From Massilia sp. 9096 (GTDB lineage Bacteria; Pseudomonadota; Gammaproteobacteria; Burkholderiales; Burkholderiaceae_D): a stretch of 64,000 bases of DNA. This document shows, one piece after another, positions 32,251 through 46,929 of the stretch. Under the pieces are notes generated by a model, which saw only the letters and a program-made list of their open reading frames with translations, had not been told where the DNA came from and ran no database searches. Location: positions 806,001-870,000 of the forward strand of contig NZ_JQNN01000001.1 in the NCBI RefSeq assembly GCF_000745265.1, read 5' to 3'. Within the stretch, counting starts at the first letter, position 1; each line of letters starts with the position of its first letter. Position numbers and translations under genes: made by a program.

Positions 32251-32371
32251 GCATGCACCGTCAAAGGCTGACCTGAGCCTGCCATTTGACGTGCATTAAA
32301 GCTTGCCGGGTCAAGGGGCATACGCTGACTCTGATCGCCAGAGGCTGGCAGCACTTTTCGACAGGCAAGAC

Positions 32372-33514
32372 ATGAACGTTTCTACGACGCGATTCCCGAA
32401 ATCGGCGGCTGGCGCCTTGGCGCTGCTGGCCCTCGTACTGGTGCTCGCGGGCTGCGCCCCCGCCATCCATTTTCGCGACCAGGACAAGGCCGGCGCGGAC
32501 CAGCCGGCACCGCCGACCGAACTCATCAACGACAAGCTGATCGCCGCCGAACGCCAGGAACACAAGGACCAGTCCAACCAGGATCTCGACAAGCTGCTCG
32601 TCCCGAATCCGCCGCCTTACACGATCGGCAGTGGCGACGTACTCTCGATCGTGGTCTGGGATCATCCCGAACTGGCCGGCGGCATGGCGGCTTCGCCCAC
32701 CGCCGACCTGGCCAGCACGGCCATGAACGCCAATGCCGGCGCCAACGCCGGTGCGCCCGGGTTCGTGGTCGACCACCTCGGCCGCATCCAGTTTCCGCTG
32801 GCCGGCCTGCTGCCGGTCGAAGGACTGACCGAGGAGCAGGCCAGGACGCAGCTGAGCACGAAGCTGGCCAAGTACCTGGCCAACCCCAACGTCACACTGC
32901 GCGTGCAGGCTTATCGCAGCAAGCGCGTGTATCTCGACGGCGAAGTCAAATCGCCCGGCCTGCAAGCGATCAACGACATCCCCATGACCCTGGTCGAAGC
33001 CATCAACCGCGCCGGCGGCCTGCTCCCGACCGCCGACCAGAGCCGCATCCTGCTCGAGCGCGGCCAGCAGCGCTACCGCGTCAACCTGCGCGAGCTGGTG
33101 CTGAAGAACATCAACCCCGGCCTCGTGATGCTCAGTCCGGGCGACGTCGTGCGCATTCCCTCGCGCGACGAAACCAAGGTCTTCGTGTCCGGCGAGGTGA
33201 TCACGCCCAAGGCGCTGACGATGCACGACGGCCGCCTCACGCTCAACGAGGCCCTCGGCGAGAGTGGCGGCATCAGCCCCTTGAGCGGCGATGCGCGCCA
33301 GGTCTACGTCGTGCGCAAGACAGCCGAGCGTACCCGCGTGTTCCAGCTCGACGCACGTGTTGCCGGTTCGCTGGCGATGGCCGAGGCTTTCGAGCTGCAG
33401 CCGAAGGACATCGTCTACGTGGCCGCCACGCCGCTGGCCAATTGGAACCGCAACCTGAGCCTGCTGATCCCGGGGGCGCTGAGCTCGGCCGTCAGCGCAA
33501 CCAATCGGCCCTGA
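32372..33514 (+). CDS. Wza-like polysaccharide export lipoprotein
   Basis: A 380-residue outer-membrane polysaccharide export protein. I chose the ATG at 32372 because it starts a lipoprotein signal with lipobox VLAGC (Cys26); a frame start at 32303 puts 23 unrelated residues first. The Poly_export domain begins at YTIGSGDVLSIVVWDHPEL, followed by two SLBB-type domains (KRVYLDGEVKSPGLQ and KVFVSGEVITPKALT). Such proteins form the outer-membrane channel for capsule or exopolysaccharide and work with a Wzc-type kinase, here encoded 19 bp downstream but broken. Confidence 0.93.
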   Translation: MNVSTTRFPKSAAGALALLALVLVLAGCAPAIHFRDQDKAGADQPAPPTELINDKLIAAERQEHKDQSNQDLDKLLVPNPPPYTIGSGDVLSIVVWDHPELAGGMAASPTADLASTAMNANAGANAGAPGFVVDHLGRIQFPLAGLLPVEGLTEEQARTQLSTKLAKYLANPNVTLRVQAYRSKRVYLDGEVKSPGLQAINDIPMTLVEAINRAGGLLPTADQSRILLERGQQRYRVNLRELVLKNINPGLVMLSPGDVVRIPSRDETKVFVSGEVITPKALTMHDGRLTLNEALGESGGISPLSGDARQVYVVRKTAERTRVFQLDARVAGSLAMAEAFELQPKDIVYVAATPLANWNRNLSLLIPGALSSAVSATNRP

Positions 33515-33533: not shown

Positions 33534-34187
33534 ATGAGTACCCCTGGCGAACCGCATGCCCTGAGCCCTGTCGTCTCGAGCCCGCCCATCCTGAACGTGC
33601 CCTTCGATCCACGCGTGGTCGAACCCCCGCACGAGGAACCGGCCTTCGATCTCAAGGGCTATCTCCATACCTTGTTCGACAACCGATGGCTGATCGGCGG
33701 CATCACTGCCCTGATCACACTGGTGGCGGTGCTGTACGCGCTGGTCGCCAAGCCGGTGTACGAGGCCAACCTGATGATCCATGTGGAGGAAGAAAGTCCG
33801 AATGCCTCCAAAAACATTCTCAGCGAGGCCTCGTCGCTGTTCGAGACCAAGAAGGCGGCGATCGCCGAGATGGAGCTGCTGCGCTCGCGCATGGTGGTGT
33901 CGCGCGCGGTCGACAACCTGCAACTCTATATCGATGTGCAGCCCAGATATTTCCCGATCGCCGGTTTCTGGTTCGCCAACCAGAACGGCAACGCGCTGTC
34001 CCAGCCAGGACTGTTCGGCTACGGCGGCTACGTGTGGGGTGCGGAAAAGGCCGATGTCTCGCTGTTCGAAGTGCCCGAAGCCTGGCTCGGCCGCCAGTTC
34101 GCGCTGACGGCGCTGGGCAAGGGGCGCTACCGTTTCTCGGGCGGCGGCCAGCGCATCGCTTTCGACGGCAACGTCGGTCTGCGCTAG
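33534..34187 (+). pseudogene. 5' fragment of a Wzc-type chain-length/tyrosine kinase gene
   Basis: The 217-codon frame encodes only the N-terminal part of a Wzc-like protein: a cytoplasmic leader, one membrane helix (about 52-72) and the start of the periplasmic Wzz domain (PVYEANLMIHVEEESPNASKNILSE to RYRFSGGGQRIAFDGNVG). A full protein would be about 720-750 residues with a second helix and a C-terminal BY-kinase, all absent here. The frame stops at TAG 34185-34187, just where the minus strand begins to match a different gene. I read this as the left side of a deletion. Confidence 0.85.
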
Positions 34188-34276
34188 CCCAGCCCGATGA
34201 TGCCGATGACGGCAGTACGGTCACGCAGCCGGTTGCTAAGCTGTTCTAGATATGCCGGTTTGCTTTCGTCACGCAT
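34184..34276 (-). pseudogene. 5' fragment of a nucleotide-sugar (UDP-HexNAc-type) dehydrogenase gene
   Basis: The minus-strand frame from ATG at 34276 encodes 30 residues, ending LRDRTAVIGIIGLG and then a stop at 34184-34186. This is the N terminus of UDP-sugar dehydrogenases such as WbpA/TviB, where the next residues are YVGLPL of the NAD-binding Rossmann motif. The rest of the gene is missing; the sequence beyond the stop belongs to the wzc fragment on the other strand. It lies 37 bp downstream of the WbpM-type gene, as expected for one former operon. Confidence 0.8.
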
Positions 34277-34313
34277 GAGTATCCTCGCGAATCGGTGGGG
34301 GGAACGAATACCG

Positions 34314-36284
34314 TCAAATACGGAACGGCACGAATTTCTTGATCAGGGCCAGGCGCTCGGGCTCGGGCAGCGGAAGGACGGTCGGCGCGCTCTGGGTTTG
34401 CTGGGGCGTGTATTCGGTGACGATCGACTTGACCATCGCTTCGATCATCGGCCGCTCGTGGGTCTCGCAGGCCATCATCAGGCAGGTGATGAAGGTGTCC
34501 AGCACGCTCGGGCGCAGGGCGTTTTCCTTCATGCGCATGATGCGCGGGTGCTCGCTCGGGCAGACTACGCCGTCGGTGAGCAGCTCCTCGTGCAGCTTTT
34601 CGCCGGGGAACAGGCCGACGTAGCGGATCTCGATGTCGCCGCCCGGGTTCTGCGACGTCTTCTCGCTCAGGCCGGACAGCGCGATCAGGGTGCGCGCCAG
34701 GTCGACGATCCTGACCGGTTCGCCCATGTCGAGCACGAACACGTCGCCGCCCTTGGCCATGGCGCCGGCCTGGATCACCAGCTGCGCCGCTTCCGGGATC
34801 AGCATGAAGTAGCGCGAGACTTCGGGGTGCGTGATGGTCAGCGGCCCGCCACGCGCGATCTGGCGCTGGAACAGCGGGATGACGGAGCCGGACGAGCCGA
34901 GCACGTTGCCGAAGCGGACCATGCAGAAGGTGGTGCCGGCGCCGGGCCGGGCGGCGGCGGCCTGGAAGATCAGCTCGGCGATGCGTTTGCTGGCGCCCAT
35001 GACATTGGTCGGGCGCACCGCCTTGTCGCTGGAGATCAGGACGCAGGTCTCGACCCCGTACTTCGCGGCCTGGGCGGCGATGACCTGGGCCCCGACCACG
35101 TTGTTGCGCAAGCCTTCGACGATGTTGGTTTCGACCAGGGGCACGTGCTTGTAGGCGGCGGCGTGATAGACCGTGTCGACGCCGCCGTCGCGCAGGATGC
35201 GCTCGACCAGCTCGGCGTTGCAGACCGAGCCGAGATGGGCTTCGATCGGGATGTCGGGGAAGCGCGTGCCCAGCTCCTGGCGGATCGTGTACAGCGCGAA
35301 CTCGGAGTGATCGAGCAGGTGCAGGCGGGCCGGGGCGAGGGTGACGATCTGGCGGCACAATTCGCTGCCGATCGAACCGCCCGCGCCGGTCACGAGCACG
35401 TGCTTGCCGCGCACGCAGCGGGCGAACAGGTCAAGGCGCGGCGGCACCGGCGGGCGTCCGAGCAGGTCTTCGAATTTGAGCTCGCGGATGGTTTCGCGCG
35501 GCGTGACCTTGTCGTCGGCCAGGTCGACCAGGCGGCTCAGGATCTTGATGGCGACGCCGGCCTGGGCCAGGCGCTGCATGATGTCGCGCAGGCGTTCCGG
35601 CGAAGCCGAGGAGATCGCAATGACGATCGAGCGGATACCCATCGCCTTGACGACTTCTGCCAGGCGGTCGGTGTGGAACACGCGCAGGCCGGCGATATTG
35701 CGTTCGTTCAGTGCGTGTTTATCGTCGAAGAAGCAGACCGGGCGATATTCCTGGCTGCCGCGCATGGTTTGCACAAGCCGCGCCCCGGCTTCGCCGGCGC
35801 CATACACGGCGACAGTTTCCGAAACGCTATGGCCAACCTCATATAAATGGCGCAGGAAATTGCGCATGCCGACGCGCGAGGCGACGACATAGGAAAAAAC
35901 GATAAACCAATAAATGGCCAATGCGCTGCGGGGAAAGTTTTCTTCATTGATCGCAAACATCACGATATAGGCGCAGAGAATGGCGATCGCCAAGGCGAAT
36001 CCGGTGACGCTCAATAAACGCTGGTCGATGAAACGAATGACCGCGCGATACAGGTCGGAGATGGAAAAGGCGGCGATCGTGACCACGGCCACCAGCACAT
36101 AGGAGGCCGGGCCGAAATGCGAAGCCAGTTTCAGGTCGCCGCCGCGCAGTAGCATGGCGATCAGGAAGCAGAATGGCAGGGCGACCAAGTCCACCGTCAC
36201 CATCATCGCAATCTTGATTGTGCGATGTAGGGAAATCAATTTGGTGCAATATTCCTTGATAACACCGTGCGTGAACTTTGGCAT
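34314..36284 (-). CDS. WbpM/CapD-type UDP-sugar 4,6-dehydratase, membrane-bound
   Basis: A 656-residue membrane-anchored short-chain dehydrogenase of the WbpM/PglF/CapD class, which converts UDP-GlcNAc to its 4-keto-6-deoxy form for surface polysaccharides. The first 140 residues hold four membrane helices; a CoA-binding-like domain follows (about 155-270); the catalytic domain has the NAD motif GAGGSIG (300-306), SSDKA (418-422) and the Met429-x3-Lys433 pair that replaces the usual Tyr-x3-Lys. The gene is full length. It is upstream, on the same strand, of the dehydrogenase stub. Confidence 0.93.
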   Translation of the reverse strand: MPKFTHGVIKEYCTKLISLHRTIKIAMMVTVDLVALPFCFLIAMLLRGGDLKLASHFGPASYVLVAVVTIAAFSISDLYRAVIRFIDQRLLSVTGFALAIAILCAYIVMFAINEENFPRSALAIYWFIVFSYVVASRVGMRNFLRHLYEVGHSVSETVAVYGAGEAGARLVQTMRGSQEYRPVCFFDDKHALNERNIAGLRVFHTDRLAEVVKAMGIRSIVIAISSASPERLRDIMQRLAQAGVAIKILSRLVDLADDKVTPRETIRELKFEDLLGRPPVPPRLDLFARCVRGKHVLVTGAGGSIGSELCRQIVTLAPARLHLLDHSEFALYTIRQELGTRFPDIPIEAHLGSVCNAELVERILRDGGVDTVYHAAAYKHVPLVETNIVEGLRNNVVGAQVIAAQAAKYGVETCVLISSDKAVRPTNVMGASKRIAELIFQAAAARPGAGTTFCMVRFGNVLGSSGSVIPLFQRQIARGGPLTITHPEVSRYFMLIPEAAQLVIQAGAMAKGGDVFVLDMGEPVRIVDLARTLIALSGLSEKTSQNPGGDIEIRYVGLFPGEKLHEELLTDGVVCPSEHPRIMRMKENALRPSVLDTFITCLMMACETHERPMIEAMVKSIVTEYTPQQTQSAPTVLPLPEPERLALIKKFVPFRI

Positions 36285-45326: not shown

Positions 45327-45875
45327 ATGCTGAGCTTCCAGGTGTTCGACAAGGGCGTGCTGGACGACGCCGAAGGGCGCCAGATCGATTTTCGCAACAC
45401 GATCATCATCCTGACCTCCAACATCGGTTCGAGCCAGATCATGCACGCCTGCCTGAACAAGACCCCTGGCGAGCGCCCGACCCCGGACGGCTTGGCCGAG
45501 ATCATCCGCCCGAGCTTGATGAAGCACTTCAAACCGGCCTTTCTCGGGCGCTTGACGGTGGTGCCGTTCTATCCGATCGACGATACGGTGCTGTCCGACA
45601 TCATTCGCCTCAAGCTCGAGCGCATCAAGCGGCGCGTGTTCGACAACCACCAGGCCGCGTTCGACTACGACGACGCGCTGGTGGCGGCGATCCTGGCGCG
45701 CTGCACCGAGGTCGACTCCGGTGCGCGCAACGTCGACACCATCCTCAACGGCACGCTGCTGCCCGAAATCGCCGATTCGGTGCTGGCGCGCATGGCCGAG
45801 GGCGGGGCGGTCAAGCGGGTCAAGGTCGGCGCGACCCGCGCCGGCAAGATCAAGTACGCGGTCGAGCCGGCTTGA
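45327..45875 (+). pseudogene. tssH: 3' fragment of tssH (clpV), type VI secretion ATPase
   Basis: The 182-codon frame matches only the C-terminal fifth of ClpV/TssH: it starts within FQVFDKGVLDDAEGR, followed by FRNTIIILTSNIGSSQIM (second AAA+ domain) and the C-terminal ARNVDTILNGTLLPEIADSVL. A complete TssH is about 880-900 residues with an N domain and two AAA+ domains. Homology begins abruptly near 45328, so upstream sequence was lost or replaced. It precedes tssA, as in intact Burkholderiales clusters. The Walker motifs are gone, so it cannot work as a disaggregase. Confidence 0.85.
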
Positions 45876-45900: not shown

Positions 45901-46929
45901 ATGCTGAACCTGGAAGCATTGCTGGCGCCGGTGAGTGCGCAGCAGCCCTGCGGCGAGGACCTCGCGTTCTCGAGCGAAGTCGACGCCATCGCGCGCGCGC
46001 GCCAGGCCGACGACCCGTCGATCGAGCAGGGCGCCTGGGTCACCGACCTGAAGGAAGCCGACTGGAAGTTCGTGGCGCGAAGCTGCGCCCAGCTGATCGA
46101 AAAGCGCAGCAAGGACCTCCAGCTGGCGGTGTGGCTGGCCGAAGCGAGCGTGCGTACCGGCGGCCTGCGCGCCTTCGGCGACAGCCTGGCCCTGATCGCG
46201 CTGCTGTGCGAGCGTTACTGGGATGGCTTGTATCCGCTGCCGGACGAAGATGGCGTCGAGCGCCGCATCGGCAACCTGGCCTGGGTGGCCTCGCGTATCG
46301 CGCCATGGCTGCGCGAGGTGGCGCTGACCGAAGGGCCGAAGGGCTACGCGCTGCGCGACTTCGACGTCGCGCGCATGCACGGCGGCGAGCAGCTGGCCAA
46401 GCTGGAAGCGGCGCGCGCGGCCGGTTCGGCTGCGTTCTGGGAAGGGATGCTGCGCGACGCCGAGTTCTGCGCCGGCGCGATCGAACAGCTGGAAAAGAGC
46501 GTCGACGCGCGCCTGGGCGCGGATGGGCCGAGCTTCAGCGCCGCCAGGTCGGGCCTGGAGAGCGTGCTGCTGTTCATCAAGCCGGAGATCAAGCAGGCCT
46601 CCGGCGCCGGATCGGGAGCTGCACCTGTGGCCAAACCCGCCATGGACGGCGTGCTGGCTGGCGGTCAGGTTGCAGTCGTGCCGGGCTCGGCTGCAGGTGC
46701 GATCGCGATGCACGGCCAGGCACTGGACCGGGTCCAGGCGCTGGCCCAGCTGCGCGCGGTGGCGGCGTTCTTTCGCCGCACCGAGCCGCACAGTCCGGTT
46801 GCCTACCTGGCCGACAAGGCCGCCGCCTGGGGCGAGCAGCCACTGCACGTGTGGTTGCGCGCGGTGATCAAGGACGACGCCTCGTACGCCCACATCGAGG
46901 AGATGCTGGGCGTGGCGCCGAAGTCCTGA
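45901..46929 (+). CDS. tssA: Type VI secretion system protein TssA
   Basis: A 342-residue TssA (ImpA family), a baseplate/sheath-priming component of type VI secretion. The ATG at 45901 has GGAGACGAG upstream, and the product starts LNLEALLAPVSAQQPCGEDL, the conserved ImpA_N beginning (about 1-130, WLAEASVRTGGLRAF). The C-terminal part has AVAAFFRRTEPHSPVAYL. The frame is intact, but the rest of the locus (tssB-G, J-M, hcp, vgrG) is absent here, so it may be an orphan. It is 25 bp after the tssH remnant. Confidence 0.9.
   Translation: MLNLEALLAPVSAQQPCGEDLAFSSEVDAIARARQADDPSIEQGAWVTDLKEADWKFVARSCAQLIEKRSKDLQLAVWLAEASVRTGGLRAFGDSLALIALLCERYWDGLYPLPDEDGVERRIGNLAWVASRIAPWLREVALTEGPKGYALRDFDVARMHGGEQLAKLEAARAAGSAAFWEGMLRDAEFCAGAIEQLEKSVDARLGADGPSFSAARSGLESVLLFIKPEIKQASGAGSGAAPVAKPAMDGVLAGGQVAVVPGSAAGAIAMHGQALDRVQALAQLRAVAAFFRRTEPHSPVAYLADKAAAWGEQPLHVWLRAVIKDDASYAHIEEMLGVAPKS

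Follow-up and report, generated by a model that had tools for sequence, protein, structure and literature searches.

Truncated Exopolysaccharide Genes in the Massilia sp. 9096 Genome

The 64,000-nt stretch of the Massilia sp. 9096 genome analyzed here (in the following, the window) carries an exopolysaccharide (EPS) locus in which a wza-type export gene and a wzc gene on the plus strand stand head-on against a nucleotide-sugar dehydrogenase gene, here labeled ndh, on the minus strand, followed by a wbpM-type gene (Table 1). As had already been described in the initial annotation of this DNA, the two inner genes are truncated, with 217 codons left of wzc and 30 codons of ndh, both outer genes are whole, and the stop codons of the two fragments overlap within GCTAGC at 34183-34188. 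The outer genes show the expected Pfam domains. The ndh fragment translates to MRDESKPAYLEQLSNRLRDRTAVIGIIGLG, directly followed by the stop. For the 217-aa wzc product, only the domains Wzz and WZC_N can be deduced, whereas the whole relative in L131 (757 aa) additionally bears GNVR and AAA_31 (Pfam). Judged by this domain content, the wzc fragment of the window is a remnant and not a working Wzc-type tyrosine autokinase, as the GNVR region and the kinase (AAA) domain are absent. The wzc open frame comprises 234 aa in the window versus 745 to 1,221 aa in the 47 matches of at least 69% identity found elsewhere (61 genomes).

For establishing what has been lost, the locus was compared with intact relatives, in which the segment between the two breakpoints of the window amounts to 13,643 bp (G012), 16,012 bp (G036) and 15,864 bp (G034). 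The mapped intact relatives possess rightward wza and wzc genes, followed in most of them by a leftward cluster ending with ndh and wbpM; only in G042 is part of the core found in the opposite orientation. Among ten genes scanned in the EPS cluster of G060 are those encoding an acyltransferase, a sugar transferase, an aminotransferase, a glycosyltransferase, a flippase and a Tn5-type transposase, besides PAP2-like and Wzy-like (Wzy_C) genes, both matching below the Pfam cut-off, and two genes without match. In Massilia timonae, a Tn5-type transposase gene is located inside the EPS cluster (L131, 10063-11241). In the window genome, neither a second wzc 3′ part nor an orphan ndh C-terminal part was found, and all other matches to the lost halves are distant (about 30% identity) or belong to three whole dehydrogenases. 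An inversion instead of a deletion is thereby rejected, and the proposed single deletion, spanning from a wzc gene read rightward to an ndh gene read leftward, agrees with the layout of the intact relatives. Moreover, a 217-aa protein conserved as a stand-alone gene, which would have spoken against this origin, was looked for in 61 genomes and not seen. The window is thus the product of a deletion in place which removed the EPS core and fused the TA of wzc codon 218 to the TA of ndh codon 31.

Table 1. Features of the EPS locus and of a second deletion scar in the window.
Feature	Position	Strand	Basis
Whole wza-type gene for polysaccharide export (403 aa, listed with a TTG start)	32303..33514	+	Poly_export and SLBB domains (Pfam)
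wzc fragment, initial 217 codons and TAG stop	33534..34187	+	Open reading frame, frames of relatives, Pfam
Junction of the deletion, joining the TA of wzc codon 218 to that of ndh codon 31	34185..34186		TAC/TAT at both places in intact relatives
ndh fragment, initial 30 codons and TAG stop	34184..34276	-	Translation
Whole wbpM-type gene (656 aa), flanking the deletion on the right	34314..36284	-	Polysacc_synt_2 and CoA_binding_3 (Pfam)
Scar of a deletion in type VI secretion system (T6SS) genes, in-frame fusion of the start codons of a T6SS gene with the ClpV C-terminal part, 182 aa	45327..45875	+	Genome comparison, Pfam
tssA-like gene, right of the T6SS scar	45901..46929	+	ImpA_N (Pfam)

Recurrence of the Scar Across the Genus

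Among 62 genomes of the genus, each representing one species, nine carry such a scar (the window genome, G005, G008, G014, G017, G023, G038, G059, and G061), while 50 possess a long ndh frame whose match covers 58 or more of the initial 60 residues and a close match is missing in three (G025, G030, and G045). Among the 392 family genomes drawn, 12 from outside the genus have a match to the start of ndh, and the frame is open over at least 443 aa in each of them. All nine scars share one ndh cut, located within codon Tyr31 at its TA. The opposite cut falls into wzc codon 48 in six scars, into wza in two and, only in the window, into wzc codon 218, where codon 48 refers to the numbering of the window gene (47 to 49 codons are kept in the six scars) and both wza cuts lie at the Tyr of DARQVY. 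Intact relatives show Tyr codons with a TA at all of these breakpoints. Every join overlaps TA on TA, to which a preceding G, where present, adds a third common base, resulting in an overlap of just 2-3 bases without any longer in-register direct repeat at the EPS breakpoints. Across 68 locus rows, in which some genomes are tallied more than once, wzc codon 48 reads TAC in 58, TAT in 4 and TTC in 6 cases; the window has TTC, hence no TA at this place, and is cut at another TA.

In eight species, about 17-22 TAs were counted in ndh, 33-45 in the wza-wzc stretch and 20-34 in wzc, of which 16-18 are in-frame Tyr codons. Because most TAs of the GC-rich wzc are in frame, the in-frame TAG at the junction needs no further explanation. 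For the ndh site, the odds of nine equal picks are near 4e-11 if each event drew randomly one of about 20 ndh TAs. The initial annotation is supported as to the deletion itself, whereas the cutting of the same ndh base in nine species lay beyond what it could see.

Two further observations concern individual scars. At 34173-34198, the junction of the window forms an imperfect palindrome centered on the common TA, whereas the codon-48 and wza junctions are not palindromic. In G023 (Massilia litorea), the chromosome is scarred, yet a whole second locus resides on plasmid NZ_CP062942.1, with the complete wza-wzc-wbpM-ndh set arranged in a single direction (L124, 4095-11323); this plasmid gives two matches, one near 5 kb and another near 145 kb, which may reflect an unclosed overlap.

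Flanking Phylogenies and Age of the Deletions

In a tree of the left flank (GlmM, hydrolase and Wza proteins; 50 rows), the nine scars need nine changes, eight of them forced by starred branches, and in the right-flank WbpM tree (38 rows) nine changes are likewise needed and all nine forced. The scars are scattered among intact species in both trees, and the WbpM tree rejects a single clade of the six scars cut at wzc codon 48 (p-AU 1.9e-5). The remnants, too, are closest to intact species, with ties of ndh with another scar in G023 and G061. G059 and L137, for example, are 98.9% identical over ndh 1-30 and 95.7% over the wzc remnant, the corresponding values for G014 and G042 being 96.7 and 89.8%. 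The ndh remnant of G008 is nearest to G007 (98.9%), while the trees place this genome by G014/G042 (left flank) or G048 (wbpM). Identity of the flanks holds at sister level as far as the junction. Since the flank trees scatter the scars and the remnants are no less similar to intact relatives than to other scars, repeated deletions in situ are favored over one inherited or transferred allele, and there is little doubt that the deletion occurred in place and separately in nine species of the genus.

Compared with the respective sister, the wzc remnants of six scars show 72 silent and 25 replacement codons versus 29 and 3 in three distinct intact pairs, whereas 32 silent and 21 replacement codons were found in the ndh remnants of all nine scars versus 17 and 17 in eight distinct intact pairs (totals summed by hand). 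A frameshift or inner stop was not encountered in any remnant in the reading shown. Overall, this agrees with deletions of fairly recent date and a somewhat relaxed constraint on wzc, the latter mainly in G005, G038, and G023.

A Second Deletion Affecting Type VI Secretion Genes

Comparison of G059 with G060 reveals a clean 15,312-bp deletion within a T6SS cluster beside the 19,070-bp EPS deletion. By this deletion, the initial codons of a T6SS gene are joined in frame to the ClpV C-terminal part, a structure also present in the window at 45327 (Table 1). In this control, covering 400 kb of each genome with 288 kb in chain, 13 qualifying indel junctions were obtained, and only the EPS and T6SS ones exceed 10 kb; G061 compared with 100 kb of G010 (65 kb in chain) gave one junction of 116 bp. 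Altogether, the T6SS scar is present in eight of the 62 genomes (the window genome, G005, G014, G023, G032, G047, G059, and G061), and both scars coincide in six of the nine EPS scar genomes (hypergeometric P 3.5e-5, uncorrected for kinship), suggesting a common change in life-style or domestication in culture. When seven intact genomes were compared, the T6SS scars of G014, G032, and G059 turned out to be closest overall to an intact sister; the first 150 bp past the G014 junction, however, are nearer to G047 than to the sister of G014. In many species, a short imperfect repeat, CTG[A/T]TCTTC, is found at both ends of the T6SS scar, so that a plainer cause can be given for it than for the EPS scar.

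Mechanism and Alternative Explanations

In our view, the findings are best explained jointly by nine separate in-place deletions at a fixed ndh TA, by breakage or recombination at TAs, by end-joining repair and by a favored loss, and on balance we lean slightly toward this combination being correct. Breaks at these TAs, or recombination with a two-base TA core, would arise in ndh and in wza or wzc; recombinases with two-base cores are known. The broken ends would then be sealed by end joining, for which Ku is commonly available (gene present in 61 of the 62 genomes). In this way, coat loss might have a mutational fast lane and may be favored in culture or in certain habitats, with the T6SS tending to be lost there as well. 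Taken by itself, machinery directed to TA is conceivable behind the repeated deletions, at somewhat less than an even chance, and TA-directed breakage sealed by end joining is our guess as to its nature. A programmed, site-directed excision, in which the fixed ndh TA and a TA in the wza-wzc operon would be cut and the whole polysaccharide core expelled as a bacterial counterpart of TA-bounded DNA elimination, appears unlikely.

Several candidate processes and site properties were evaluated, none of which yielded a cause. As in excision by IS630 or Tc1/mariner elements, a single TA is retained where two TAs bounded the lost segment; excision by such a transposase was nevertheless rejected, as DDE_3, the only Pfam family tested, had no match in six of the nine scar genomes. 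An exchange of cassettes at these sites among intact species was also rejected, identity remaining steady for wzc in 16 pairs and for ndh in 14 of 15; in the exceptional pair L139-L136, it drops from 90 to 80 and 71% just beyond ndh codon 31. A hairpin or terminator is not indicated at any of the nine scar junctions on either strand (z between -1.2 and 0.4). Silent variation among 52 wzc sequences is markedly low just right of the codon-48 site (windows centered on codons 50-54, L131), this stretch being the second lowest of the gene and located on the side lost in six scars.

A number of results weigh against the favored combination. The IS630-type transposase (DDE_3, PF13358) is encoded in 12 of the 62 genomes and in only three of the nine scarred ones, while serine recombinases (PF00239) do not discriminate between scar genomes (9/9) and others (45/53). 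In eight species, neither terminal inverted repeats on the lost segment nor direct or inverted similarity of the sites ranked consistently, and silent variation does not dip at codon 31 of ndh. Paired breaks are expected to yield inverted products as well, none of which was seen among the wzc and ndh matches in the genomes of the genus. Neither an enzyme nor a recognition motif for joining TA to TA was found among those tested. The T6SS scar lacks TA boundaries and has the short imperfect repeat instead. In addition, G005, G017, G038, and the window were compared without very close intact species, so that independence is there derived mainly from the trees, and the scar wzc remnants bear more replacement changes than the intact pairs, therefore not all events need be very recent.

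A serious rival, to which we assign a considerable though clearly minor chance, is ordinary illegitimate deletion via microhomology of 2-3 bases, with selected coat loss and local features making the sites hot, but without dedicated machinery. The short overlap of the joins agrees with this, as does the predominance of in-frame Tyr codons among the wzc TAs, by which the in-frame TAG needs no cause; moreover, the T6SS scar with its short imperfect direct repeat, shared by six of the same nine genomes, indicates that precise recurrent deletion may occur here without special enzymes. What this explanation has difficulty accounting for is the identical ndh base in nine of nine scars and the identical wzc codon in six, despite the 17-22 and 33-45 TAs available in ndh and wza-wzc, respectively, and the lack of a longer in-register repeat at the sites.

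Much less probable is that homologous recombination spread a single old scar allele from species to species, importing only very short tracts. Identical wzc and ndh codons in six scars could be taken in its favor, together with a G at position -4 in three scars (G059, G023, and G038) where the compared sister has C, and with the G047-like 150 bp at the T6SS junction of G014. However, three distinct left ends exist, remnants and flanks remain at sister level up to the junction, the G at -4 is common among intact species as well, and donor-like sequence around the junctions was not seen, leaving room for tracts of a few bases. An ancestral scar with regain of the cluster by most species, in favor of which the scattering of scars through the genus can be cited, is highly improbable in view of the steady identity through the breakpoints in intact pairs (16 wzc and 14 of 15 ndh, L139-L136 excepted) and of the close similarity between scar remnants and intact sisters. 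A misassembly, or an accident private to the window genome, can practically be dismissed, because the same junction class is found in eight other genomes and the full 780-bp stretch is present as a single copy in a two-contig genome of 5.71 Mb.

Comparison With Known Systems

Repeated in-place deletion at a fixed ndh TA has partial counterparts in other systems, while on such a junction in this genus nothing was found in the literature (titles and beginnings of abstracts). Excision bounded by TA is known from Tc1/mariner and IS630 elements and from the internal eliminated sequences of ciliates, with which the EPS scars have in common that a segment between two TAs is lost and one TA stays. Unlike these elements, the EPS segment has no terminal repeats consistent between species, and a search for DDE_3 gave no match for six of the nine genomes with the scar. 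In Pseudoalteromonas, excision of IS492 leads to phase variation of EPS, likewise a precise DNA rearrangement switching EPS; there, however, an inserted element leaves the gene, whereas in Massilia it is the EPS genes that leave, and the junction shows no element. In Streptococcus equi, the has capsule locus underwent convergent deletion with scattered breakpoints tied to insertion sequences (PMC4561494). In both cases, a locus for surface polysaccharides was lost independently in different lineages, but the Massilia scars share one ndh base in nine species and show no longer in-register repeat at their junctions. Repeated loss of costly surface polymers is already known, while here nine species share the same base without scattered breakpoints or insertion sequences, and deletion of the EPS core in this genus seems unusually precise and repeatable. 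Either these deletions are made by a precise machinery so far unrecognized, or mutation can be predicted far beyond what its homology would allow.
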